DNA of 64,000 nucleotides, taken from positions 1 through 64,000 of the forward strand of contig QMIW01000002.1 of assembly GCA_024434165.1 (NCBI GenBank). The letters run 5' to 3'. Positions 2,795 to 15,248 of the stretch are shown here, piece after piece. Positions within the stretch are counted from its first letter, which is position 1. Every line of letters begins with the position of its first letter. Origin of the DNA: Chloroflexota bacterium. GTDB lineage: Bacteria > Chloroflexota > Anaerolineae > Anaerolineales > Villigracilaceae. The notes below the pieces were generated by a model that saw nothing but the letters and a program-made list of their open reading frames with translations, had not been told where the DNA came from and searched no databases. A program made the translations under genes and the position numbers.

Positions 2795-2941
2795 GTTTCT
2801 TCCTCTGGGGATATTTTAACACAACCGTTAAACGAAAAGACACGAGTCACGAAAATGCAACTCCGTGCCTTTGCCGTGTTTTTGAATTGGACAGACTGTC
2901 GGGGCGGGGAATTTTGCCCTATATCTTCACGTCGTTGGACG

Positions 2942-3193
2942 CTAATCGGGTGGAGCGTATCCAATATCCAAAAGATATCGTCCAATACCGCGCGCCTTGA
3001 TTTTCCGTTCGTGAAGCATTGCATCTGAGCGGTTTTCGAATGATTCGACGTGAATCAATTCCCATGGCGCACCCGCACGCGTGGATTTCGACTTTCCCGC
3101 GTTATGTTCTTGCAGGCGTCTCTCTACATCTTCCGTTGACCCTGCATAGTATCGCTGCAGGCGATGGCTGCGGAGAATATATACGTAAATCAA
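2942..3193 (-). CDS. GIY-YIG domain endonuclease-like protein
   Basis: 83 aa when started at the TTG at 3193. The single domain shows YVYILRS followed by YYAGSTEDVERRLQEHN, the GIY-YIG core with its catalytic Arg, then FENRSDAMLHERKIK carrying the Glu. Small stand-alone GIY-YIG proteins of about 80-100 aa are common in bacteria and mostly uncharacterised. The frame stays open upstream through both tRNA-like sequences, but those residues are not protein-like. The chosen TTG lies one base beyond the 3' end of tRNA-Pro, so the mRNA would have to be released from, or start inside, the tRNA transcript. No ribosome binding site is visible. Confidence 0.7.
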   Translation of the reverse strand: MIYVYILRSHRLQRYYAGSTEDVERRLQEHNAGKSKSTRAGAPWELIHVESFENRSDAMLHERKIKARGIGRYLLDIGYAPPD

Positions 3194-3194
3194 G

Positions 3195-3269
3195 TCGGGG
3201 CGATAGGATTCGAACCTACGACCTCTTGCTCCCAAAGCAAGCGCGCTAACCGGACTGCGCCACGCCCCG
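3195..3269 (-). tRNA. tRNA-Pro (anticodon UGG)
   Basis: Read on the minus strand this folds as a complete cloverleaf. The acceptor stem is CGGGGCG/CGCCCCG with discriminator A, the D stem GCGC/GCGC, and the anticodon stem CTTGC/GCAAG around loop TTTGGGA (anticodon TGG). The T arm is GTAGG TTCGAAT CCTAT. CCA is not encoded. The GIY-YIG gene follows immediately downstream. Confidence 0.93.
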
Positions 3270-3316
3270 ATATATCTTGAAAGATCACATTCACTGGTGC
3301 ACGACGCAATCGTCAA

Positions 3317-3390
3317 TGCACCCTGATGGATTCGAACCGGGGACCTTGGCGCCACAGCGCCACGCGCCAACCGGGTTGCGCTACGCCCCG
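3317..3390 (-). pseudogene. Degenerate tRNA-like sequence upstream of tRNA-Pro
   Basis: The 5' half (CGGGGCG, then GCGC-AACCCGGTTG-GCGC) closely matches the neighbouring tRNA-Pro acceptor and D arms, and GGTTCGAATCC marks a T loop. The 3' acceptor side (AGGGTGC) does not pair with CGGGGCG. The T stem has only two pairs and the anticodon stem TGGCG/CGCCA leaves a six-base loop. It therefore looks like a decayed or recombined tRNA copy rather than a working gene. Confidence 0.5.
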
Positions 3391-3409
3391 TTGCGATAAG
3401 CGTGCCGAG

Positions 3410-3415
3410 TATAAT
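3410..3415 (+). promoter_or_regulatory. -10 box (TATAAT) of esterase gene
   Basis: A perfect TATAAT ends 7 bases before the ATG at 3423, which puts the predicted transcript start at or just before the start codon. No convincing -35 box is seen. Confidence 0.45.
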
Positions 3416-3422
3416 GCGGAGG

Positions 3423-4319
3423 ATGAACCCCCGTCAAGCAGTTCTCATCACAGCCCTGTTCGCGCTTCTTTTCGGACTTTCAGCCTGTTCCGACCCACAA
3501 GAAATTATCCCCACTCCAAGCGTGACCGTCCCCCCGCCCAGCCCGACGGTCACATTGACTCCCAGTCCAATTCCCCTCACTGTCACACCCACCCCGCTGA
3601 CCTGCCTCACCCAGCCCGGCAGGGTCGAGCAGGGAGCGGTCTCCACCACCGAACCGCCGCAGGATTTTCTCATTTACCTTCCGCCCTGTTACTCCGAACT
3701 GACTGACCAGCGGTATCCCGTCCTCTACCTGCTTCACGGACAGACCTACACCCAGGATCAGTGGGTGAGACTGGGCGCGCCGCAAATTGCCGACCGGATG
3801 ATTCTTTCGGGTGAAAACCAACCCTTCATCATCGTCTTTCCCGATGACCGCCACTGGAACCTGAACGCCGGCGCCGGGTTCGGCGACCGCCTCGTCAATG
3901 CCCTCGTCCCGTTCGTGGATGCGAATTACCGCACCATTGCAGACCGCGACCACCGCGCCCTGGGCGGTCTCTCGCGCGGCGGCGGCTGGGCGGTACAGCT
4001 TGGCTTTCAGCGCGTGGATTTGTTCGGCTCGCTGGGGCTGCACTCGCCGGGCATCTTCAAGGAGGACGCTCCTTCCATCGAGCGCTTGATTCGCGGAATC
4101 CCGGAAGAGTCCCGCCCGCGCTTGTGGCTGGATGTGGGAGATAACGATCGGGAGCAGGAAAGTGTCATTCAATTTGAAGAGATGCTCGCGCGCATCGGGT
4201 ATATCCACGAGTTTCACTTGTTTTCCGGCGACCACTCCGAGGCATATTGGGCGGCGCACGTCGGCGATTATTTACGCTGGTACGCCGAAGCATGGCATCA
4301 GGAGCCGGGGGAGCAGTAA
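3423..4319 (+). CDS. Secreted lipoprotein esterase (enterochelin esterase/esterase D-like)
   Basis: 298 aa from ATG 3423; upstream in-frame GTG 3402 and ATG 3414 are less likely because they overlap the -10 box. The N-terminal lipoprotein signal ends LLFGLSAC, and a Pro/Thr-rich spacer of about 35 residues follows. The alpha/beta-hydrolase domain shows YPVLYLLHGQ (oxyanion strand) and the nucleophile elbow GGLSRGGG (Ser in G-x-S-x-G). An Asp (LWLDVGDND) and a His (FSGDHSEAYW) complete the triad. It is probably anchored outside the cell and cleaves an ester; the substrate is unknown. A serine hydrolase of this fold could also be an acyltransferase. Confidence 0.8.
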   Translation: MNPRQAVLITALFALLFGLSACSDPQEIIPTPSVTVPPPSPTVTLTPSPIPLTVTPTPLTCLTQPGRVEQGAVSTTEPPQDFLIYLPPCYSELTDQRYPVLYLLHGQTYTQDQWVRLGAPQIADRMILSGENQPFIIVFPDDRHWNLNAGAGFGDRLVNALVPFVDANYRTIADRDHRALGGLSRGGGWAVQLGFQRVDLFGSLGLHSPGIFKEDAPSIERLIRGIPEESRPRLWLDVGDNDREQESVIQFEEMLARIGYIHEFHLFSGDHSEAYWAAHVGDYLRWYAEAWHQEPGEQ

Positions 4320-4321
4320 GA

Positions 4322-4327
4322 TATAAT
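4322..4327 (+). promoter_or_regulatory. -10 box upstream of galE
   Basis: TATAAT lies 26 bases before the galE ATG, and a ribosome binding site (CAGGAGC) sits between them. No clear -35 hexamer is present. The box falls immediately after the esterase stop codon. Confidence 0.5.
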
Positions 4328-4353
4328 TTCCAAAAATCATTCCAGGAGCAGAA

Positions 4354-5331
4354 ATGAACATTTTCGTCACGGGCGGAGCGGGCTACATCGGCTCCGCCAC
4401 TGCAGCAGCGCTTATCCAGGCGGGACACACCGTCACCGTTTACGACTCCCTCGCCACCGGGCATCGCGCCGCGGTCCCGGCAGAGGCGGAATTCATCCAC
4501 GCCTCGCTGGACGACACGCACGCCCTCGCCGAGGCATTGACCTCCAAAAAGTATGATGCGATCATGCACTTTGCCGCTTTCATCGAAGCGGGCGAAAGCA
4601 TGAAGGACCCCGGCAGGTTCTTTCGCAATAACTTCGGCAACTCCCTGCAATTGATGGAAACCGCCGTCCGCGCGGGCGTGCGGAAATTTGTCTTTTCTTC
4701 CACGGCGGCGGTGTACCAATCCAGCGACGAGCCGCTGACCGAAGATTCCCCGCTCGGACCGACCAATGTATACGGTCACACAAAACTAATGACCGAGCAG
4801 GCGCTGGAATGGTACCGCGGCATCTTTGGCTTGCGTTACGCGGCGCTGCGTTACTTCAATGCCTGCGGCGCACTGCCCGGACGCGGCGAAGCTCACCAGC
4901 CCGAGTCGCATTTGATCCCGCGCGTGCTGCAGATTGCGCTCGGTCAGGCGGAAGCCGCCACGATCTACGGCACAGATTACCCCACGCCGGATGGAACCTG
5001 CATTCGCGATTACATTCACATTTCTGACCTGGTTTCGGCGCACATCCTTGCCCTCGATGCGCTCGACAAACGCGACAGGATGATTTACAACGTGGGCAGC
5101 GGCAACGGTTTTTCGGTAAGGGAAGTGATCGAAGCGGCGCGCAAGGTGACCGGTCATGCCATCCCTGCGATTGAATCTCCCCGCCGCCCCGGCGACCCGG
5201 CGCGTCTGGTCGCTTCACCGAAGCGCATCATCAACGAACTCGGCTGGCAGCCCAACCACACCAACTTACAGGATATTCTTTCCAGCGCGTGGGAGTGGCA
5301 TAGATCGCACCCGAACGGGTACGAGAAATGA
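4354..5331 (+). CDS. galE: UDP-glucose 4-epimerase
   Basis: 325 aa, typical length. An extended short-chain dehydrogenase: NAD-binding GGAGYIG at residues 7-13, the catalytic region with SSTAAVY near 115-121 and Y140-x3-K144 (YGHTK). C-terminal family motifs are RYFNACGA, DGTCIRDYIHISDL and YNVGSGNGFSVREV. It interconverts UDP-glucose and UDP-galactose in the cytoplasm, feeding the Leloir pathway and surface glycans. It sits alone between its own -10 box and a terminator. Confidence 0.93.
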   Translation: MNIFVTGGAGYIGSATAAALIQAGHTVTVYDSLATGHRAAVPAEAEFIHASLDDTHALAEALTSKKYDAIMHFAAFIEAGESMKDPGRFFRNNFGNSLQLMETAVRAGVRKFVFSSTAAVYQSSDEPLTEDSPLGPTNVYGHTKLMTEQALEWYRGIFGLRYAALRYFNACGALPGRGEAHQPESHLIPRVLQIALGQAEAATIYGTDYPTPDGTCIRDYIHISDLVSAHILALDALDKRDRMIYNVGSGNGFSVREVIEAARKVTGHAIPAIESPRRPGDPARLVASPKRIINELGWQPNHTNLQDILSSAWEWHRSHPNGYEK

Positions 5332-5336
5332 GCAAA

Positions 5337-5371
5337 CCGGACGGTCAATATGAAGTGATCGTCCGGCTTTT
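5337..5371. terminator. Terminator between galE and the converging small gene
   Basis: Stem CCGGACG ... CGTCCGG with a 16-base loop, then CTTTTAT on the plus strand. It lies 5 bases after the galE stop, and its T-run overlaps the stop codon of the minus-strand gene. Confidence 0.6.
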
Positions 5372-5621
5372 ATAACCCGAGCCTTGCTTCGAGAGCATCA
5401 ATGACGCTTTTGGCTTCCGCCAGACCGGCATTGGTCAATTCCCGATAAACTTTGACGGCTTCGATCTTGTTGCCGCGTTTGAGAAATTCGATGATGCGGG
5501 GATCGGGGGCGTTGGGATTATCGCTGTATTCAATTCCCAGTCTTTTATAAAGAAAATCCAGACGGTCTTCCAACTCCGCCACGCGGGCACGCAGGTGAAT
5601 CAGGTCCTGTTCGGTGGACAT
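5370..5621 (-). CDS. Coiled coil plus ribosomal L7/L12 C-terminal-like domain protein
   Basis: 83 aa. Residues 4-30 form a short coiled coil (DLIHLRARVAELEDRLDFL). Residues 40-80 (PRIIEFLKRGNKIEAVKVYR, then AGLAEAKSVIDALEARLG) resemble the C-terminal domain of ribosomal protein L7/L12, with its Lys-Val and Glu-Ala-Lys pattern. Stand-alone copies of this domain are found in many bacteria and their role is unknown. It stands alone, with a repeat-filled gap upstream. Confidence 0.65.
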   Translation of the reverse strand: MSTEQDLIHLRARVAELEDRLDFLYKRLGIEYSDNPNAPDPRIIEFLKRGNKIEAVKVYRELTNAGLAEAKSVIDALEARLGL

Positions 5622-5651
5622 GGGTTCTTCTCCTTCAATGGATTAAATCTT

Positions 5652-5820
5652 AGAAAGTGTTTTGAAATTCGTTTATAACCACAGATGAACACAGATAAAT
5701 TGGATTTAAAGCCCTTGAACTGGCATTTCCGTCAAAAATCAACGTTCATCCGCGTTTACACTTGCACCGAACGCAAGTGTGCGGTGTCTGTGGTGAATTT
5801 TGATTTATAAAACACTCTCT
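5652..5820. repeat. Long imperfect inverted repeat filling an intergenic gap
   Basis: The outer arms AGAAAGTGTTTT ... AAAACACTCTCT and ATAACCACAG ... CTGTGGT face each other. The interior has a small hairpin (ACTTGC ACCGAAC GCAAGT). No gene is visible in the gap. It belongs to the many dispersed palindromic repeats of this window. Confidence 0.55.
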
Positions 5821-6449
5821 TACTGCCCGCAGGTGAAACGGTTTAACGCTTCATCGAAAAGCGGACGGGCGCTTTCCACGCTCGGTGTGTAAACCTTCCA
5901 CGCAAAGACGCGGTCTCCGCACGTCCATGCGCCCACGCCCCCGGCGGGAAGCACGGCCGCAGCGGTGGTGGAGATGTCGTCGTACATCACGTTCATGCCG
6001 CGCACGAGAAACACTTCGGTATTGCCGGCGGGAGTATCGAGCGTGTCGTCGAGGAGGGTATCCATGAGGAAGCGCGGGTCGCTGGTGTTGGGCGCGATCT
6101 GCCATATCACCTGAATGAAGAGATTGTTGTTGAACGCCGCCAGCATCCCCTGGCTGTACGTGCTGGTGGCGGCGGGATTCTTCTGCGCGCTGATGTCGAA
6201 GAAGACCACGTCCACGGGGTGACCGATGCAGAATTGATACTCGCAGAACAAACCGGCAAGGCTGAAGGGGGTGGGCGTTGGGTAGGGGGTGGCAGGCGGT
6301 ACCGGCGTGGGGGTTGGAAGCGCTGCGAGGGTTGCGGCAACCGCCTGTTGAATGATCGTGTTCGGATTGGGTGTGACCGTTTTCGGGGCGCACCCCGCCG
6401 CAAGAAACAGGAGCAGGCTCAGGGTCGTCAGAAGCGTTTGTCTTTTCAT
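5820..6449 (-). CDS. Lipoprotein of unknown function
   Basis: 209 aa from ATG 6449. The open frame continues upstream to 6821, but those residues are an out-of-frame shadow of nirK and cross a terminator palindrome. The lipobox LLLFLAAGC is followed by a helical stretch and a Pro/Thr spacer (PTPTPVPPATPYPTPTPF). The mature part of about 140 residues has Cys pairs (FCEYQFC, and Cys in WTCGD and FTCGQ) that may form disulfides outside the cell. I do not recognise the family. It follows nirK but is separated from it by a perfect palindrome that should stop transcription. Confidence 0.65.
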   Translation of the reverse strand: MKRQTLLTTLSLLLFLAAGCAPKTVTPNPNTIIQQAVAATLAALPTPTPVPPATPYPTPTPFSLAGLFCEYQFCIGHPVDVVFFDISAQKNPAATSTYSQGMLAAFNNNLFIQVIWQIAPNTSDPRFLMDTLLDDTLDTPAGNTEVFLVRGMNVMYDDISTTAAAVLPAGGVGAWTCGDRVFAWKVYTPSVESARPLFDEALNRFTCGQ

Positions 6450-6477
6450 CCGGGAGATTATAAAAGGAATAATCGAA

Positions 6478-6515
6478 AAAGACCTGACAGGTTTTCGAAA
6501 ACCTGTCAGGTCTTT
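6478..6515. terminator. Perfect 38-base palindrome, probable terminator
   Basis: AAAGACCTGACAGGTTTTC joined directly to its exact reverse complement. The stem is 19 base pairs with no spacer and ends in TTT on both strands. It separates nirK from the lipoprotein gene and could act in both directions. Its perfection also fits a recently spread extragenic palindrome. Confidence 0.65.
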
Positions 6516-6531
6516 ACTTGCTATGGTTACT

Positions 6532-8313
6532 TTAATGTCCGCTTCCCGAAGTGGGGGTTCCATCAAATATTTCGGGATTGGGTTCGCCTTCCACCACGAG
6601 GTATCCGGCGAGACCGCGCTGCAGCCTGGAGAGGGCATGGTCAACGAGGATGAAATTGCCGGGCACTTCGAGATCGAACTCGACCATGGTTGCGCCGCCG
6701 GGCGGGACGAGGGTGGTTTGCACGTCGGTGAGCGGCGCGCCGGTGAGCGAGGCTTGGTCGTACACGCGGTCGAAGATTTCACCGATGACGTGGAAGGACG
6801 AAGTAAAGTTCGGTCCGCCAACGCCGAAGAAGATGCGCACGCTTTCGCCTACATTGGCTTTGAGCGGTTTCTGATCCACCAGGGCGTTCACCGCGCCGTT
6901 GAAGACGAAGTATTCGGGGTCTTCGTTCAGCAGTTTGGTGGTATCGGACATTTGATGTCCCTGTTCGCCGAATGCGCCTGCGGTGTAAAGTTCGCCCTGC
7001 ATCACGTAGAACTCGCGGTCTACGGGGGGAAGTCCGCCTTCGGGTTCGACGAGGATCAGACCGTACATGCCGTTTGCGATGTGGTCTGCGACCATCGGCG
7101 TGGCGCAGTGATAGACGTATAAACCGGGATTGAGCGCCTTGGCGGTGAACGTGGTTTCCTCACCAGGCTTGGTCTGGGTCATCACCGCGCCTCCGCCCGG
7201 ACCGGTGACCGCATGGAAATCCACGGAGTGATTCATAGTGCTGGAGGTGCTGTTCTTCATGTGGACTTCGATGGTATCGCCGACGCGCACACGGAAGAAC
7301 GGACCCGGAACCTGACCGTTGAAGGTCCAGTAGGTGAAGGTGGTGCCATCTGCCAGTTGACCGTTAATTTCAATCGCTTCGAGGTCAATGCGGACGGTGG
7401 TCGGTTCGCGGTCGCCGATGGGACCCGGCAGGTCGGCGGGGTCACGCACGATGTCTGCGCCGCTGTTATCGGGTTCCTGGGGTGCGGTTATCGTGTCGCC
7501 GGCGGTTGTGCTTTCGGCGTATGCGCCTTCGGGCAGCCCGTTCAGATAAGTCACGATGGCATTGACTTCATCGGTTGTCAACGCTTCAGAGAAGGTGGCG
7601 GGCATTACGTTGGGCGCACAGGCGCCGGTGGGGCAGGAGGGTGAAAGGAACAGGTTCGGGTCGAGGATCGATTCGCGCAGGTATTCCTCGCTGGTGGCAG
7701 CCGTGCCTGTGTAGGCGTCGCTGCTGACGTGTTCCTCCGCCATCATCTTTGCATCGGAAAGGTCGGGACCCACCACGCCCACCGCGCCGGGGATTCCGGG
7801 AATAACGTGACAGCTTCCGCACGCGCCCTTTTGGAAGGCGGCAATCACGGCGGGGTCGCCATTGCTGGTTGTCGCGGCCGCCGGCATGGAGATTTCGCCC
7901 GATTCGGTTACGGTCAATTTTCCGCGCATGCCCAGTTCTGCATGATTGGAGACGCTGTCGTAGTATTCCATTTCTCCGTGAACTTCGGGTACGGTAAATG
8001 TGACCGAAGCCGCTTCGCCTTTTTCCTTGACGATGCCCGTGCTGGCGTTGACTTCGGGGAAGGTGATGTCGTGTTGTCCCATGCCGCCGTTGATCAGCGT
8101 GACGGTGATTCGCTCACCGGGTCTTGCGCTCAGCGTGGGATTGGCGATCCCGTTGATTTCATCGCTGACGCCCAAAAAGATCAGGTTGCCGTCTCTCAGG
8201 TCGGTCGTCAGCACGTATTCTCTGTCAACAGGTTGAAAATTTCCACCTGCGCAGGCGGCGATGAGGATGCCCAGCAGGATGAGCAAAATGGGAAGTTTAA
8301 AGTTTGGTTTCAT
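6532..8313 (-). CDS. nirK: Four-domain copper nitrite reductase with cupredoxin and cytochrome c extensions
   Basis: 593 aa. The lipobox ILIAAC puts Cys21 at the mature N-terminus. Residues 28-137 form a cupredoxin domain that keeps His81, His124 and Met129, but Asp119 stands where the copper-binding Cys is expected. Residues 152-262 are a class I cytochrome c: heme motif C165-G-S-C168-H169, likely Met237 axial ligand. Residues 300-580 are the NirK core. Type 1 copper ligands are His362, Cys403, His411 and Met416. Type 2 ligands are His367, His402 and His559, with catalytic Asp365 and His508. It should reduce nitrite to NO outside the cell, with electrons entering through the fused heme. The DUF1858-like gene is 13 bases upstream and a copper cassette follows divergently. 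Confidence 0.9.
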   Translation of the reverse strand: MKPNFKLPILLILLGILIAACAGGNFQPVDREYVLTTDLRDGNLIFLGVSDEINGIANPTLSARPGERITVTLINGGMGQHDITFPEVNASTGIVKEKGEAASVTFTVPEVHGEMEYYDSVSNHAELGMRGKLTVTESGEISMPAAATTSNGDPAVIAAFQKGACGSCHVIPGIPGAVGVVGPDLSDAKMMAEEHVSSDAYTGTAATSEEYLRESILDPNLFLSPSCPTGACAPNVMPATFSEALTTDEVNAIVTYLNGLPEGAYAESTTAGDTITAPQEPDNSGADIVRDPADLPGPIGDREPTTVRIDLEAIEINGQLADGTTFTYWTFNGQVPGPFFRVRVGDTIEVHMKNSTSSTMNHSVDFHAVTGPGGGAVMTQTKPGEETTFTAKALNPGLYVYHCATPMVADHIANGMYGLILVEPEGGLPPVDREFYVMQGELYTAGAFGEQGHQMSDTTKLLNEDPEYFVFNGAVNALVDQKPLKANVGESVRIFFGVGGPNFTSSFHVIGEIFDRVYDQASLTGAPLTDVQTTLVPPGGATMVEFDLEVPGNFILVDHALSRLQRGLAGYLVVEGEPNPEIFDGTPTSGSGH

Positions 8314-8326
8314 TCTGAACTCCTTT

Positions 8327-8539
8327 TTAAATTTGAACGACTAAATCTTTCGCTTCTTCCAGAAACTTCTTCTCGTCAAGTTGATATGCCTTGACGACAT
8401 CGCCCAGCGTGCAAAACCGCGCAAACCCACAGCCTGCGCACGCCGTGCGCCAGTCCAGAAAAAAGCGGATGGCTTTGGGGGTGGATTTCAAAACAGCTTC
8501 CACATGGGTTTTGGAAATCTCGGAAAAATCGTTCGTCAT
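8327..8539 (-). CDS. DUF1858-like small cysteine-motif protein
   Basis: 70 aa from ATG 8539; an in-frame start at 8557 is also possible. The fold reads like DUF1858 domains: a helix (HVEAVLKSTPKAIRFFLDW), then CAGCGFARFC, then TLGDVVKAYQLDEKKFLEEA. The three Cys (C-x2-C-x5-C) could bind a metal or act in redox chemistry. It starts the operon that continues into nirK 13 bases later and lies just downstream of the operator palindrome at 8573. Related proteins occur near redox and nitrogen-oxide enzymes; its exact role is unknown. Confidence 0.7.
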   Translation of the reverse strand: MTNDFSEISKTHVEAVLKSTPKAIRFFLDWRTACAGCGFARFCTLGDVVKAYQLDEKKFLEEAKDLVVQI

Positions 8540-8572
8540 AAGTACAGAATATCGCAATCTTCCCAGCCTGTC

Positions 8573-8588
8573 TTTGCGCTAGCGCAAA
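8573..8588. promoter_or_regulatory. Crp/Fnr-type operator upstream of the nirK operon
   Basis: TTTGCGCTAGCGCAAA is a perfect 16-base palindrome with half-site spacing like TTGnn-N4-nnCAA sites of the Crp/Fnr family. It lies 34 bases upstream of the DUF1858-like start, a usual activator position. The adjacent gene encodes a Crp/Fnr protein. Binding is inferred. Confidence 0.6.
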
Positions 8589-8611
8589 TTATCACAAATG
8601 AAAAGTCCACC

Positions 8612-9337
8612 TCATTTTTCGAGCCCCTCCGCGATTCGCACCAAATCGTGCGGCTTGAGCACGGTGATTTTCTCCCTGCCGGTTTCGAGAATGCCCTTCC
8701 GCTCCCAGTCGCTGAAGAGGCGGCTGACCGTGTACAGCGTGGTGCCGGTCATCTCTGCAACCTCCTGCCGGGAGAAGGTGAGTTCGCTGCCCGCCTCTTT
8801 TCTGGGCCCTTCGCCCGGCTCAGGACGGCGCCTGATGCCTGTCTGCCCCGCCAGGCGGATCAGTGCGTTCGCCACTCTCTGCTCCACTTTTTCGGTGGCG
8901 AGTTCGCGGTAGCGCGCCTGCATTTCCTGAATGTAGGAGGTCATCAGATTCATCAAGCCAAAGGAAAGATAGGGACGGGTCTGCATCATCGAGCGCAGAA
9001 AGGCGCTCTGAATGGCGAGCGCGGTGCTGTCTTCCAGCGCCTGGGCGGTGGCGGGGTAGGCGGCTCCGTTTGAGCGGACAGCCCCGAGCGCGCCGAACAT
9101 CTGCCAGGGGTAAATCGTCCGCAGGTTGACCTGCTGTCCGCTGGGATTCGACTGGGTCAATTTGACCTGTCCGCTGGTGAGCACGTACAGGTAAACGGCT
9201 TCGTCGCCCTGCAAAAATAAGAAACCTCCTTCCTCGATGGAGCGAAGAATGCTGTTTTTCAGAATCAGGTCCAGGTCGTCTTCGGGAGCGTGTTGAAAAA
9301 CTTCAACCTGTTTCAAGTCTTTCGATGAAATGTCCAT
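8612..9337 (-). CDS. Crp/Fnr family transcription regulator
   Basis: 241 aa. Residues 10-130 are the cyclic-nucleotide-binding-type beta roll (FLFLQGDEAVYLYVLTSGQVKL). Residues 135-160 form the dimer helix, and residues 150-225 a Crp-type winged helix (LTFSRQEVAEMTG, then TVSRLFSDWERKG). There is no cysteine anywhere, so it cannot carry an Fnr-type FeS cluster. An NO-sensing DNR/NnrR-like role with heme, or another ligand, is more likely. In the recognition helix the Glu that reads TTGAT in Fnr is replaced by Tyr, consistent with a different site such as TTTGCGC. It lies immediately upstream of the nirK operon and probably controls it. Confidence 0.88.
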   Translation of the reverse strand: MDISSKDLKQVEVFQHAPEDDLDLILKNSILRSIEEGGFLFLQGDEAVYLYVLTSGQVKLTQSNPSGQQVNLRTIYPWQMFGALGAVRSNGAAYPATAQALEDSTALAIQSAFLRSMMQTRPYLSFGLMNLMTSYIQEMQARYRELATEKVEQRVANALIRLAGQTGIRRRPEPGEGPRKEAGSELTFSRQEVAEMTGTTLYTVSRLFSDWERKGILETGREKITVLKPHDLVRIAEGLEK

Positions 9338-9376
9338 ACGATTATTTTACACCCTAAAGCGATGACATTTATCCAC

Positions 9377-9436
9377 TTGACAGGGCGCGGGGAGGTGCTG
9401 TATATTTCGCTAGCCCCACCCCCCTGGGGGGGGTAA
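9377..9436 (+). promoter_or_regulatory. csoR promoter with overlapping CsoR operator
   Basis: -35 TTGACA (9377-9382), an 18-base spacer and -10 TATATT (9401-9406). Directly over the expected transcript start is a C-run/G-run palindrome, TAGCCCCACC...GGGGGGGTAA (9411-9436). This is the shape of known CsoR sites (a C tract followed by a G tract flanked by TA). Copper-dependent derepression of the whole cassette is the natural reading. Confidence 0.75.
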
Positions 9437-9476
9437 GAGCAAGGCGATATGCCGTTTCTTAGAACTAGAGGTAACC

Positions 9477-9746
9477 ATGGACAATGAAAGCACGCTCAGA
9501 AGACTGAAGACCGTCGAAGGACACCTGCGCGGGGTCATCCGCATGGTGGAAGAAGACGCTTATTGTATTGACGTCATCCGTCAGATTCAGGCAATCGAAG
9601 CCGCCTTGAACAAGGTCAGCGCGCAGATCCTTGAAGGACACCTGAACTCCTGTGTCACGACCGCCATTCAGGGCAATGATAAGAAGGAACGTGAACGGGT
9701 GCTGAAGGAAATTACTGAAGTGTTCGAAATGTCCACGAAAGTTTAG
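9477..9746 (+). CDS. csoR: Copper-sensing repressor of the CsoR family
   Basis: 89 aa, all-helical. It has the CsoR metal site C30, H55 and C59 (in DAYCID and EGHLNSC), equivalent to Cys-His-Cys of the Mycobacterium protein, which binds Cu(I). N-terminal family residues are RRLKTVEGHLRGVIRMVEE. It should repress by binding the G/C palindrome at 9411-9436 and release it when copper binds. First gene of the copper cassette; the ribosome binding site is AGAGGT, 5 bases before ATG. FrmR and RcnR relatives have different metal residues, so copper is the best call. Confidence 0.9.
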   Translation: MDNESTLRRLKTVEGHLRGVIRMVEEDAYCIDVIRQIQAIEAALNKVSAQILEGHLNSCVTTAIQGNDKKERERVLKEITEVFEMSTKV

Positions 9747-9829
9747 CCAATGCTCATGGCGGCGGCTTGAGCTTTTGGCAAATGTTCAAGATGGCTGCGA
9801 AAGTTAAATTCTTTTAGGAGTTGATAAAC

Positions 9830-10240
9830 ATGTTGCTCAAGAAAGTTTTACCCGTTTTTCTAGCGGTTCTCCTTTCCGCGTGTGCAGGCGGATCGGCGCC
9901 GACCAAGGTCACCGTGACCATGAGTGAGTTTGCCTTCGAACCAGCCAGCATCACGGTAACGGCGGGGCAGCCGGTGGAGATCACGCTGGTGAACGAAGGT
10001 GCGATCGAGCACGATTTCGCGATTGAAGTTATTCCGGTGGAAGACGTTTCAACGGAAGGCTCGATGAGCGGGCATGACGAGTCCGGCCAGCATTCGGAGT
10101 TCGATGTGCATACCGCCACCGGACCCGGTGAAACGAGCGTCCTGCGCTTTACGCCCACCCAGCCCGGTACCTATAAAATCATCTGCTCTGTTCCCGGTCA
10201 TCTCGATGCCGGTATGACGGGCGAGTTAATCGTCAAATAA
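9830..10240 (+). CDS. Lipoprotein cupredoxin (plastocyanin-like)
   Basis: 136 aa from ATG 9830, with AGGAG 10 bases upstream. The lipobox is VLLSAC. The mature domain is a single cupredoxin (TVTMSEFAFEPASITVTAGQ) with His in IEHDFAIE and the ligand loop CSVPGHLDAGMTG, giving a full type 1 set (His, Cys, His, Met). A His/Glu/Ser-rich insert (GSMSGHDESGQHSEF) before the last strands may bind extra copper. It could carry electrons to NirK or hold copper outside the membrane. It is the second gene of the CsoR cassette. Confidence 0.85.
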   Translation: MLLKKVLPVFLAVLLSACAGGSAPTKVTVTMSEFAFEPASITVTAGQPVEITLVNEGAIEHDFAIEVIPVEDVSTEGSMSGHDESGQHSEFDVHTATGPGETSVLRFTPTQPGTYKIICSVPGHLDAGMTGELIVK

Positions 10241-10595: not shown

Positions 10596-13106
10596 ATGAC
10601 CGATACCAAACAACTCACCCTCCCCATCACCGGCATGACCTGCGCCAACTGCGTTGCCACGGTGGAGCGCAATTTGAAGAAACTCGATGGCGTGGACAAT
10701 GCCGTGGTAAACCTTTCTTCGGAACGCGCCACCGTGGATTTCGACGCCTCCAAACTCGGGCTGACCGATTTCATCGCCCGCGTCAACCGCGCCGGGTACG
10801 GGGTCGCCACCGGTGAAGCGGATCTCGTCATCAAGCGTTTGTCTGACGACAACGATGCCCGCCGCCTGGAGAAAGCCCTCGCCAAACTCGAAGGCGTGCT
10901 CGAAGCGCAGGTGACATTTACAACCGAAAAGGCGCGCGTCAAGTACGTGCCGACCATTATTACGCAAGCGGAATTACGCCGCGCGGTTTCCGCCGCAGGG
11001 TTCGAAGCGCTGGAACTGGGCGGCGCGGCGGAAGATGCCGAAGCGCTGGCGCGCGAACATGAAATCAACGAACAGCGCCGGCTGCTCATTATTGGTTTGA
11101 TATTTACAGTCCCGCTCTTTGTTCTTTCCATGAGCAAGGATTTCGGGCTGCTTCCCGATTTCTTCTACACCAGCAACTCCATGGAAGGCATGCGCGACGC
11201 CCAACCCTGGTTTGGCTGGTTGATGCTGGCGCTGGCGATCCCTGTTCAGTTTTATGTCGGCTGGCAGTATTACGTGGGTGCCTTCAAAGCGATTCGCAAC
11301 AAGTCCGCCAACATGGACGTGCTCATTGCAATGGGTTCCTCCGCCGCCTTCTTCTATTCCCTGCCGATCACCTTTGGCTGGCTGATGGGACACGTCTATT
11401 ACGAGACGGCGGCGGTCATTATCACGCTCATCAAATTGGGTAAGTTCCTCGAAGCCCGCGCCAAAGGACGCACCTCTGAAGCCATCAAAAAGCTAATGGG
11501 TCTGCGTGCCAAAACCGCGCGAGTCATCCGCGATGGCGTGGAAACCGAAGTGCCTGTGGACGATGTCCGCGTGGGCGATGTGGTGATGGTGAAGCCGGGC
11601 GAGAAAATCCCGGTGGATGGGGTGGTGGTGGAGGGTCGCAGCGCGATTGACGAATCCATGTTGACGGGTGAGTCGCTTCCGGTTGAAAAGAAGCCCGGCG
11701 ACCCGGTCATCGGCGCAACGCTCAACAAGCTGGGCTTGATCAAGTTCGAAGCCACCAAAGTTGGAAAAGAAACCGCGCTGGCGCAGATCATCAAACTGGT
11801 GGAAGATGCGCAAGGCAGCAAGGCGCCCATCCAGAAGATGGCGGATCAGGTCTCAGCCGTGTTCGTTCCCATCGTCATCGTCATTGCCTTGCTGACGTTT
11901 TTCGGCTGGTACTTCTTCGGTCCGCAATTGCCGATCAACTCGGACATTGATAACTTCACCCGCGCCTTGATTTACATGGTGGCGGTGCTGGTGATCGCTT
12001 GTCCGTGTGCGATGGGGCTTGCCACTCCGACCGCCATCATGGTGGGGACGGGCAAAGGCGCCGAAGCGGGTATTCTCTTTAGAAATAGTGAAGCCTTGGA
12101 ACGCGCGGGCAAGGTCAATGTGGTGGTGCTGGATAAGACTGGGACGATCACAAAGGGGCAACCGGCGGTTACGGATATAGTGGTCAGTGACCAGTTATCA
12201 GTGACCGGTGACGAACTGCTCCGCTTGGCAGCATCTGTGGAAAAAGGTTCAGAGCATCCACTCGGTGAAGCCATCTGGGCGGAAGCGACCACTCGCGGAT
12301 TGAATTTGGTCGAACCGGCTGGGTTCAAGGCAGAGGCTGGGCATGGCGTTCAAGCCGAGGTCGAGGGAAGAAGCGTGATGGTCGGGAACAAGAGAATGTT
12401 CGAGGCGAGAGGAATCTCCCTGGGCAATCTCGAATCCGAAGTGGCGCGTCTTCAATCCGAAGCGAAGACGGCGATGCTGGTTGCGATTGACAACGTCGCG
12501 GCGGGAGTCATCGCGGTGGCGGATACCATCAAAGAGAGTTCACAAGAGGCGATTGCCGACCTGCACAAGATGGGCTTGAAAGTGGCGATGATCACCGGCG
12601 ACAATCAAAAAACTGCCGAAGCGATTGCCAGGCAGGTTGGAATTGATATGGTACTTGCTGAGGTCTTGCCGGAAGGAAAATCTACAGAAGTAAAGCGTTT
12701 ACAAGTTGGAAAGTCGGAAAGTTTACAAGTTGAACCTTTAAACTTGAAAACCTTCAAACCTGAAAACGTAGTAGCGATGGTCGGTGATGGCGTGAACGAC
12801 GCTCCCGCTCTTGCTCAAGCGGACGTTGGTTTGGCGATCGGCACCGGCACCGATGTTGCCATGGCTGCCGCGCCTGTGACCTTGATGAGCGGCGACCTGC
12901 GCGGAGTTTCGCGCGCGATCCGTTTGTCCCGCAAGACGGTCACGACCATCAAACAGAATCTGTTCTGGGCGTTCATTTACAACGTGATCCTGATTCCCGC
13001 CGCGATGCTTGGTTATTTGAATCCCATGCTTGCCGCCGCCGCAATGGCGTTCAGCAGCGTTTTTGTGGTGACGAACAGTTTGAGGCTGCGCGGGGTGAAG
13101 ATATAA
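10596..13106 (+). CDS. copA: Copper-exporting P1B-type ATPase
   Basis: 836 aa. The first HMA domain has C16-A-N-C19. A second HMA-like domain (about 78-145) has lost both Cys. The membrane part has the ion-path motif C469-P-C471 and eight expected helices. The soluble part has phosphorylation Asp513 in DKTGT, HP in SEHPLGEA and GDGVNDAP. It pumps Cu(I) out of the cytoplasm; some relatives supply copper to exported enzymes, which fits the neighbouring NirK. Two unusual segments, about residues 528-536 and 706-727, are translations of short DNA words otherwise seen in intergenic repeats. The first lies in the nucleotide-binding domain, the second just before GDGVND. Both keep the frame. Confidence 0.95.
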
Positions 13107-14042: not shown

Positions 14043-15248
14043 ATGAGCAAAAAACAACAACCTTCTGTTGACCCTGTCATTGTGGTAATGATCGGCGTGG
14101 TATTCCTTGCAGTTGCCATCGCCATGATCGTCTTTCAACCCCAAGGCAATTCCATTGATATCGCCGCCGACTCAGGCGTAATAAGCCAGCTTGTTGTTGC
14201 TTTTGTCACCGGCATCACGACTGGCGGTTTGAGCTGCCTGGCGGTGCAGGGCGGCTTGCTCGCCAGTTCGCTCGCACATCAAATCGAACGGGATTATGTC
14301 GAACATGCGGCACAGCATAAAGGCAAAAATTCGAAACACCATGAAGCTGTCCGCACGAACAGCGCATTTCCAATCTCGCTCTTTCTGATTGCAAAACTTG
14401 TTGCATATACATTGCTCGGCACTCTGCTGGGCTGGCTGGGTTCGTATCTGACCTTCAGTCCGATGATGCGGGCCCTTCTGATGTTGTCCGTCGGCATCTT
14501 CATGATCGGCAACGCATTGCGCATGTTCAACGTCCATCCGATCTTTCGTTATTTTTCCGTCGAACCCCCGAAATTTATCACCCGTTATATTCGCAAGACC
14601 GCCAAAGGCACAGACACCGCCACACCGATCTTCCTCGGTCTGCTCACCGTCTTCATCCCCTGCGGCGTGACCCAAGCCATGATGGCGACCGCCCTCGGCA
14701 CCGGCAGTGCCCTGATGGGCGCGGCACTGATGTTTGCCTTTACACTTGGCACCAGCCCTGTCTTCTTCACCATTGCTTACCTAACCACGGAACTTGGCGC
14801 AAGGCTTGAAAAATTCTTTATGAGATTTGTCGCCATCGTGGTTTTGATTCTGGGATTTGTTACCTTCGACAGCGGACTCAACCTGATGGGCTCGCCCCTC
14901 TCGCTTCAAAACCTGACGCGAAGCTGGTTCCCCTCCCAGGCAGAATCCAACCTCGCAGCGGATTCTGCCCCATCCGCCGCGGACGGCGAACTCCTCCTCA
15001 TGGTCCGAAACGGCGGATATTTCCCCGCCACCCTGAAAGCCCCCGCAGGCAAAGACCTCACTCTGAACCTCATCACCAATCAAACCTACTCCTGCGCGCG
15101 CGATTTCGTCATCCCCGCCTTGAATTACTATGAACTTCTGCCGGATACCGGCACCGTCAAAGTGACCATCCCCGCGCAAAAGGCAGGCTCGACCCTCTTC
15201 TTCACCTGCTCGATGGGTATGTACACCGGGCAGATTGTTTTTGAATAG
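14043..15248 (+). CDS. UreH/TauE-like membrane protein fused to a C-terminal cupredoxin-like domain
   Basis: 401 aa. An N-terminal helix (VIVVMIGVVFLAVAIAMIVF) is followed by six or so membrane helices of the UreH/DsbD_2/TauE type (VTGITTGGLSCLAVQGGLLAS, FIPCGVTQAMMATALGTGSAL). Between helices lies a His-rich loop (HAAQHKGKNSKHHEAVR). Residues about 315-401 form a small extracytoplasmic cupredoxin-like domain with SCARDFVIP and FFTCSMGMYTG, where Cys and Met pairs could bind copper. It may move copper or reductant across the membrane; relatives are annotated as sulfite exporters. Ribosome binding site GAGGTC. Confidence 0.75.
   Translation: MSKKQQPSVDPVIVVMIGVVFLAVAIAMIVFQPQGNSIDIAADSGVISQLVVAFVTGITTGGLSCLAVQGGLLASSLAHQIERDYVEHAAQHKGKNSKHHEAVRTNSAFPISLFLIAKLVAYTLLGTLLGWLGSYLTFSPMMRALLMLSVGIFMIGNALRMFNVHPIFRYFSVEPPKFITRYIRKTAKGTDTATPIFLGLLTVFIPCGVTQAMMATALGTGSALMGAALMFAFTLGTSPVFFTIAYLTTELGARLEKFFMRFVAIVVLILGFVTFDSGLNLMGSPLSLQNLTRSWFPSQAESNLAADSAPSAADGELLLMVRNGGYFPATLKAPAGKDLTLNLITNQTYSCARDFVIPALNYYELLPDTGTVKVTIPAQKAGSTLFFTCSMGMYTGQIVFE

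Follow-up and report, generated by a model that had tools for sequence, protein, structure and literature searches.

A conserved cupredoxin–cytochrome c–NirK lipoprotein family in Anaerolineales with front-end domains that also occur on NirS

The 64,000-nucleotide stretch of Villigracilaceae DNA analyzed here (the window) encodes a lipoprotein in which a cupredoxin domain (CupA) and a c-type cytochrome domain (C1) precede the nitrite reductase NirK. The layout itself was already reported in 2022. What is new is that it represents a real, conserved family and that its front-end domains are also carried by NirS, whose catalytic part, a cytochrome cd1, is unrelated to NirK. Related front-end domains are placed by this Anaerolineales group on two unrelated enzymes for the same step, sometimes at the same locus, so natural variants that have or lack each part offer a test of the role of tethered redox domains. 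The copper-binding Cys is replaced by an invariant Asp in 50 natural CupA domains, which makes them a natural counterpart of a classic engineered azurin.

The nir gene lies on the minus strand (6532–8313; ATG at 8313, stop at 6532) and encodes 593 amino acids, as identified from its open reading frame, Pfam and NCBIfam models and PDB sequence matches; frame 1 of the plus strand is interrupted by stops over the same positions. The protein begins with a lipoprotein signal read from the sequence (residues 1–21, 8251–8313), which ends in the lipobox IAAC with Cys21. It is followed by CupA (residues 28–137, 7903–8232; profile, domain tree, structure model and fold comparison), C1 (residues 152–262, 7528–7860; family models, alignment and tree) and the NirK core (residues 288–585, 6559–7452; TIGR02376 and alignments), all on the minus strand. 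The four-domain lipoprotein order that the sequence-only reading had proposed is borne out by the domain models, the PDB matches and the lipobox. Its suggestion of a membrane tether agrees with the presence of a lipobox in 21/21 CupA-C1-NirK and 9/9 C1-NirK proteins.

The NirK model TIGR02376 scored 321.7 bits against residues 288–585, above its curated cut-off of 296.3. Core residues H362, C403, H411, M416, D365, H367, H402, H508 and H559 were invariant in 30/30 aligned C1-bearing proteins, so the earlier statement that all type-1 and type-2 ligands are present holds. By AcNiR numbering, we take H362, C403, H411 and M416 to be the type-1 ligands, H367, H402 and H559 the type-2 ligands, and D365 and H508 the catalytic residues. 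The cytochrome had been placed at C165-x2-C168-H169, and the only CxxCH of the chain was located there (CGSCH, residues 165–169; 7807–7821, minus, by alignment), which gives the enzyme a built-in heme site, as had been claimed. C165, C168, H169 and the distal Met237 (7603–7605, minus, by alignment) were invariant in 30/30 aligned proteins, and Met237 would be the axial heme ligand. C1 stayed below the curated cut-offs of three cytochrome models, namely PF13442 (15.6 against 27 bits), PF00034 (15.8 against 21.3) and TIGR04485 SoxX (31.6 against 61), the last of which gave the best family stretch (E 2e-7). The window C1 is 54% identical to the C1 of the C1-C2-NirS from the same genome. Two extra cysteines, residues 227 and 232 (CPTGAC; 7618–7635, minus), are invariant in 28/28 aligned C1 domains of NirK and NirS and possibly form a disulfide. 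Among solved structures, the three-domain NirK of Hyphomicrobium denitrificans (2dv6, 6tfd) is nearest in sequence in its core as well as in its N-terminal cupredoxin, but it has no cytochrome, and its cupredoxin retains the copper Cys that the window's has lost. A full-length AlphaFold model from a 30-row alignment was poor (pLDDT 59.2, pTM 0.44) and was not used for domain contacts or distances.

Cupredoxin-C1-NirK ORFs were described in a few Chloroflexi MAGs, where an assembly artefact was suspected (Schwartz et al. 2022, PMC8756737). The legend of Figure A6 of that study lists cupredoxin-C1-NirK as type b, beside C1-C2-NirS and cupredoxin-C1-C2-NirS. By description, the window protein belongs to this class, with an N-terminal cupredoxin, C1 and NirK in one ORF. 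The window family also shares with those ORFs the domain order, the phylum and a C1 in common with C1-C2-NirS, and the nirS neighbours named for SURF MAG 71 (Fes, GalE, CsoR, a P-type ATPase and DsbD) fit the window locus by name (PMC8756737). In contrast to the present family, the available parts of that report describe a few identical ORFs and mention neither the Asp, nor double-cupredoxin relatives, nor NirK and NirS at one locus. No further report of cupredoxin-C1-NirK appeared among the open-licence PMC papers listed.

A four-domain heme-CuNiR is likewise in print for Bradyrhizobium sp. ORS 375 and other Rhizobiales (PMC7775769), in which a heme domain is also added to the core according to the accessible text. 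Among the catalogued loci, eight distinct cytochrome-cupredoxin-NirK proteins were found in Pseudomonadota (L078 being from Bradyrhizobium), and their cupredoxin keeps its Cys. The ORS 375 protein has this order as well. The cores of the eight form a separate starred clade, and the window order is instead cupredoxin-cytochrome-NirK. The premise of the sequence-only reading that extended NirKs add either a cupredoxin or a cytochrome is therefore wrong, as it is contradicted by the order of Schwartz et al., by the published heme-CuNiR and by these eight relatives. A 2024 phylogeny groups many Chloroflexi NirKs with those of Hyphomicrobium and Bradyrhizobium ORS 375 in one clade, and Chloroflexi C1-C2-NirS corresponds to its NirS clade 1g (PMC10999283).

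The census was based on 229 loci, made up of the best 80 of at least 587 genome-contig loci and further genome stretches; the class and phylum searches drew on samples of 396 and 400 genomes and contributed at most 30 loci each, supplemented by further stretches. The data consist entirely of genomes, almost all of them MAGs. After removal of identical-end proteins, the catalogued NirKs comprised 21 CupA-C1-NirK (window included), 9 C1-NirK, 18 double-cupredoxin and 45 single-cupredoxin proteins, together with 17 without these domains. The catalogued NirS comprised 28 C1-C2-NirS and 14 cupredoxin-C1-C2-NirS in addition to two cupredoxin-C1 pieces, counts in which some genes appear more than once as truncated copies. 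The CxxCH that the L138 open frame shows at its second residue was not taken as a cytochrome domain. The CupA profile was matched (E up to 1e-30) in 48 of 152 genomes of the window's family.

The other 20 CupA-C1-NirK proteins are 68–87% identical to the window protein. The members have uninterrupted reading frames, one of which lies on a contig of 4,742,491 bases (G825) and another on a contig of 1,164,123 bases (L014). Crp/Fnr, CsoR and CopA genes were found upstream in all 13 CupA-C1-NirK loci with at least 3 kb of upstream sequence, and a small lipoprotein gene downstream in 13 of the 14 with 1.2 kb of downstream sequence, as well as in 7 of 8 C1-NirK loci. Schwartz et al. had allowed for an assembly or binning artefact, and it is true that the members come nearly all from MAGs and that the earlier examples, as described in the available part of their report, were identical to one another. 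An artefact can be given practically no credence here and is ruled out, because there are 21 distinct proteins, which share their neighbours and of which one sits on a contig of 4.74 Mb. The cupredoxin-C1-NirK fusion is a real, conserved family.

The proposal that residues 28–137 form a cupredoxin is upheld by alignment and fold comparison with 2dv6 alike. Residues 33–141 align with the N-terminal cupredoxin of this Hyphomicrobium NirK (domain E 1.4e-14), and the CupA profile matches 6tfd at 1.2e-25 and 2dv6 at 1.8e-25. A structure model of CupA alone (pLDDT 93.0, 108-row alignment) superimposes on 2dv6 with a Z of 20.4 and an rmsd of 1.6 Å over 112 residues. The 2dv6 and 6tfd entries reach Z 20.3–20.4 over 111–113 residues, followed by the next rows at 13.4, and the Foldseek E is 3e-13.

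Asp119 (7957–7959, minus) stands at the copper-Cys position in the alignments, and H81, H124 and M129 occupy the other ligand positions, which confirms the claim that Asp replaces the Cys while His and Met are kept. In the column alignment, Asp occurs at this position in 50/50 non-redundant CupA domains; these are 50 of 55 first or NirS-borne domains, from which the copies L128, L167, L209 and L221 and the Gly-type L151 were left out. The cupredoxins of L035 and L082 carry Cys in the alignment. A sequencing error or recent mutation at D119 was rejected in view of the 50/50 count and of the use of both codons (20 GAC and 1 GAT in the 21 CupA-C1-NirK genes). The type-1 His/Cys/His set is absent from the window CupA and all 50 clade domains, whereas 74/74 cysteine-type relatives (second cupredoxins of double NirKs, single-cupredoxin NirKs and other cupredoxins) keep an intact His/Cys/His/Met.

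All four H/D/H/M positions are intact in 37 of the 50 CupA domains, including that of the window, compared with 74/74 intact H/C/H/M sets (Fisher p 2.6e-6, kinship ignored). Losses affect the first His in 2 domains, the second His in 13 and the Met in 1. Ligand residues were read from aligned columns, as motif patterns are misled by a shortened loop: the Asp-to-Met stretch is two residues shorter in 20/50 domains, and the position of the second His in these 20 hinges on gap placement. On the domain tree, Asp-type cupredoxins form one clade (support 100/97, 50 rows), within which the deepest branch consists of L041 and L045, double-cupredoxin NirKs with the ordinary loop MDSVPGH. The Cys/Asp difference needs one change on this tree, and the intact/broken ligand state at least four, of unspecified direction. 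The tree and the change counts used 15 of the 45 CupB-only domains and left out L128, L167, L209, L221 and L153; the domain trees had 115 and 116 columns, with often weak support. The copper Cys of the outer cupredoxin was lost at least twice, since L151 (G728), a double-cupredoxin NirK of another family and a separate lineage, has Gly and Tyr at copper-ligand positions of its first cupredoxin. In L153 (G477), a 1420-residue open frame (2919–7178, minus) contains two Cys-type cupredoxin domains.

The median dN/dS was 0.113 for CupA (180 pairs), 0.14 for C1 (119) and 0.085 for the core (206), obtained by a simple counting method with many dS values above 1. Judged by its codons, CupA is under purifying selection and shows no decay. 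The other ligands are broken in 13/50 domains while the Asp stays; therefore, a copper site conserved across CupA appears unlikely, and we read the Asp as a structural stand-in for Cys rather than a copper ligand, although the window keeps the full H/D/H/M set. The two options offered earlier thus fare differently: a red or non-blue copper site is weakened, and a purely structural domain fits better, again with the reservation of the intact window set. A nitrosocyanin-like red copper site was also considered and rejected: nitrosocyanin retains its Cys. It stands in the fold list at Z 12.4, like many cupredoxins, and no match of ligands is asserted.

The favoured interpretation, which we hold to be fairly probable, is an outward-facing, membrane-anchored NirK with CupA as a copper-free spacer or docking module. 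The enzyme, with its predicted lipid anchor at Cys21, would be held at the outer membrane surface of the cell, where a membrane or soluble carrier may deliver electrons to the C1 heme. We infer that this heme passes them to the type-1 copper of the core and that they move on to the type-2 copper, where nitrite would become NO. CupA would be derived from a Hyphomicrobium-type cupredoxin through the one Cys-to-Asp change placed on the tree and, lacking type-1 copper, would most likely serve as a metal-free spacer or in docking. C1 is common to NirS, and C1-NirK exists without CupA, which points to C1 as the electron entry and CupA as an accessory.

An unlikely alternative is that His81, Asp119, His124 and Met129 of CupA coordinate copper or another metal and that the domain relays electrons, like C112D azurin. 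In this engineered protein an Asp substitutes for the copper Cys and is accompanied by two His and a Met, as in the window CupA, and crystal structures with Cu(II) are described in the accessible text (PMC8915257). The locus adjoins copper-handling genes, and a weak or non-type-1 metal site is possible because the window CupA and 37/50 domains keep all four positions. However, the likeness of CupA to C112D azurin is one of sequence, and 13/50 relatives miss a His or Met, with at least four changes on the tree and the Asp retained throughout. The reorganization energy of C112D azurin, reported in the same text as well above that of the wild type (PMC8915257), is unfavourable for a relay, and C1-NirK enzymes do without CupA. 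As to natural type-zero or Asp cupredoxins, the open-licence PMC literature yielded a single azurin paper. The N-terminal copper of Hyphomicrobium NirK is some 24 Å away from the type-1 copper of the core. The accessible part of one paper cites pulse radiolysis in which this copper receives the electron first (PMC7201279), whereas in that of another it is said to be unable to shuttle electrons (PMC6400189); tethering alone is therefore no proof of electron delivery.

It is also rather improbable that CupA serves to reduce or gate activity, for instance through a steric hold on C1 or the core, instead of docking or delivering electrons. Such a role would suit a domain that is conserved and selected while the family does not retain its copper ligands as a set, and the Bradyrhizobium four-domain NirK is reportedly down-regulated by N-terminal tethering. 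However, CupA also occurs on NirS, which has an unrelated fold, and gating would need to suit both cores. A docking or spacer module, by comparison, remains our preferred interpretation of CupA.

CupA and C1 are portable, being carried by NirK and NirS alike. Asp-type cupredoxins were found on double-cupredoxin NirKs, CupA-C1-NirK and CupA-C1-C2-NirS (to which L113 belongs). Both main Asp subclades (99/98, 20 rows; 99/77, 28 rows) contain domains attached to NirK and domains attached to NirS, which requires at least three partner changes. For the C1 tree, copies or near-copies (L002, L128, L163, L165–L168, L209 and L221) were omitted, leaving 23 C1 domains from C1-C2-NirS and 12 from NirS proteins with CupA or from pieces. 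On this tree, a branch (100/99) separates the 30 rows of NirK C1 from the NirS C1. In L219 (G748), the sequence is split over two overlapping open frames, one for CupA-C1 and one for C2-NirS.

The core tree was built from 17 of the final 21 CupA-C1-NirK proteins; it left out L053, L067, L099, L101, L104 and L106–L112, whose cores are two-domain, broken or repeated, as well as duplicates from the genome searches of loci already included. On this tree, 25 of 26 C1-bearing NirK cores fall in one clade (97/93). The remaining core, L016, is placed elsewhere with CupB-NirK cores (100/93), yet its C1 groups with the other NirK C1; because the two placements disagree, the sequences indicate that the front end moved or the core was replaced at L016. 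The nine C1-NirK proteins without CupA are scattered among CupA-C1-NirK, and starred branches force at least three changes. This scatter suggests that CupA was lost repeatedly, and CupA looks dispensable from these sequences. A one-domain swap on the same core, from CupA-CupB-NirK to CupA-C1-NirK, is unsupported by the core tree, on which double-cupredoxin cores branch separately (weak, 90/58) and C1-bearing cores group with those of CupB-NirK (99/91).

Directly upstream of the window nir gene lies a Crp/Fnr-type regulator (8612–9337, minus; ORF and family search), and directly downstream a small lipoprotein without a Pfam match at 0.001 (5820–6449, minus), read from an inner ATG of a longer ORF with its start inferred from the signal sequence; it is possibly an accessory protein. 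The plus strand encodes a CsoR-type metal-sensing repressor (9477–9746; PF02583), a stand-alone lipoprotein cupredoxin with Cys (9821–10240; ORF and family search), a CopA-like copper P-type ATPase named by eye from its translation (10596–13106) and a DsbD_2 membrane protein with a C-terminal cupredoxin (14043–15248; family search). Among loci with 3 kb of upstream sequence, CsoR and CopA were present upstream in 6 of 7 C1-NirK, 2 of 9 double-cupredoxin and 5 of 32 single-cupredoxin loci.

NirK and NirS are rarely found in one genome according to the consulted text (PMC10999283). A second nitrite reductase, C1-C2-NirS, is encoded elsewhere in the window genome, on a different contig that lacks the neighbours of the window locus. 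In two species, L234 (G858) and L235 (G825), CupA-C1-NirK and C1-C2-NirS form a same-strand tandem at the window's locus, flanked by the Crp/Fnr regulator and the small lipoprotein. Chloroflexi C1-C2-NirS, with its common C1 and, in some genomes, CupA, shares the CsoR locus in 4 of 13 NirS regions with wider flanks, where CsoR adjoins nirS (L236, L237, L238 and L248). CopA is present in three of these four (in L236 it would lie beyond the contig end) and the small lipoprotein in three, and no Crp/Fnr gene was detected at 60 bits in the four. CsoR is absent from the other nine regions, five of which carry an upstream Crp/Fnr gene. The idea that NirK and NirS loci have the same fixed neighbours was only partly borne out, as Crp/Fnr, orientation and CsoR differ. 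In L248 (G064; 6766–10069), C1-C2-NirS is reversed between the small lipoprotein and CsoR, and its frame overlaps the lipoprotein frame.

Together, the Asp-cupredoxin and C1 may tentatively be viewed as a movable adaptor through which different nitrite reductases dock to one shared electron source in the membrane, in which case the shared front end could allow one locus to exchange its NirK or NirS core, and the Asp-cupredoxin would be a conserved class that traded copper for a protein–protein role. This broader idea is held to be less likely than not, and its probability is lowered somewhat because the NirK and NirS loci share their neighbours only partly.

NosZ gave no match above cut-off in the window genome and likewise none in 14 control genomes, which leaves that search without a positive control. 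In the window genome, matches above cut-offs were obtained for a cytochrome c assembly protein, the respiratory nitrate reductase NarG and members of the heme-copper oxidase family. The far flank of the conserved locus contains an esterase (3402–4319, plus; PF00756) and a GalE-like epimerase named by eye (4354–5331, plus). An ORF on the minus strand (2942–3370), presumably resembling a GIY-YIG-type protein, overlaps a tRNA-Pro at 3194–3269.
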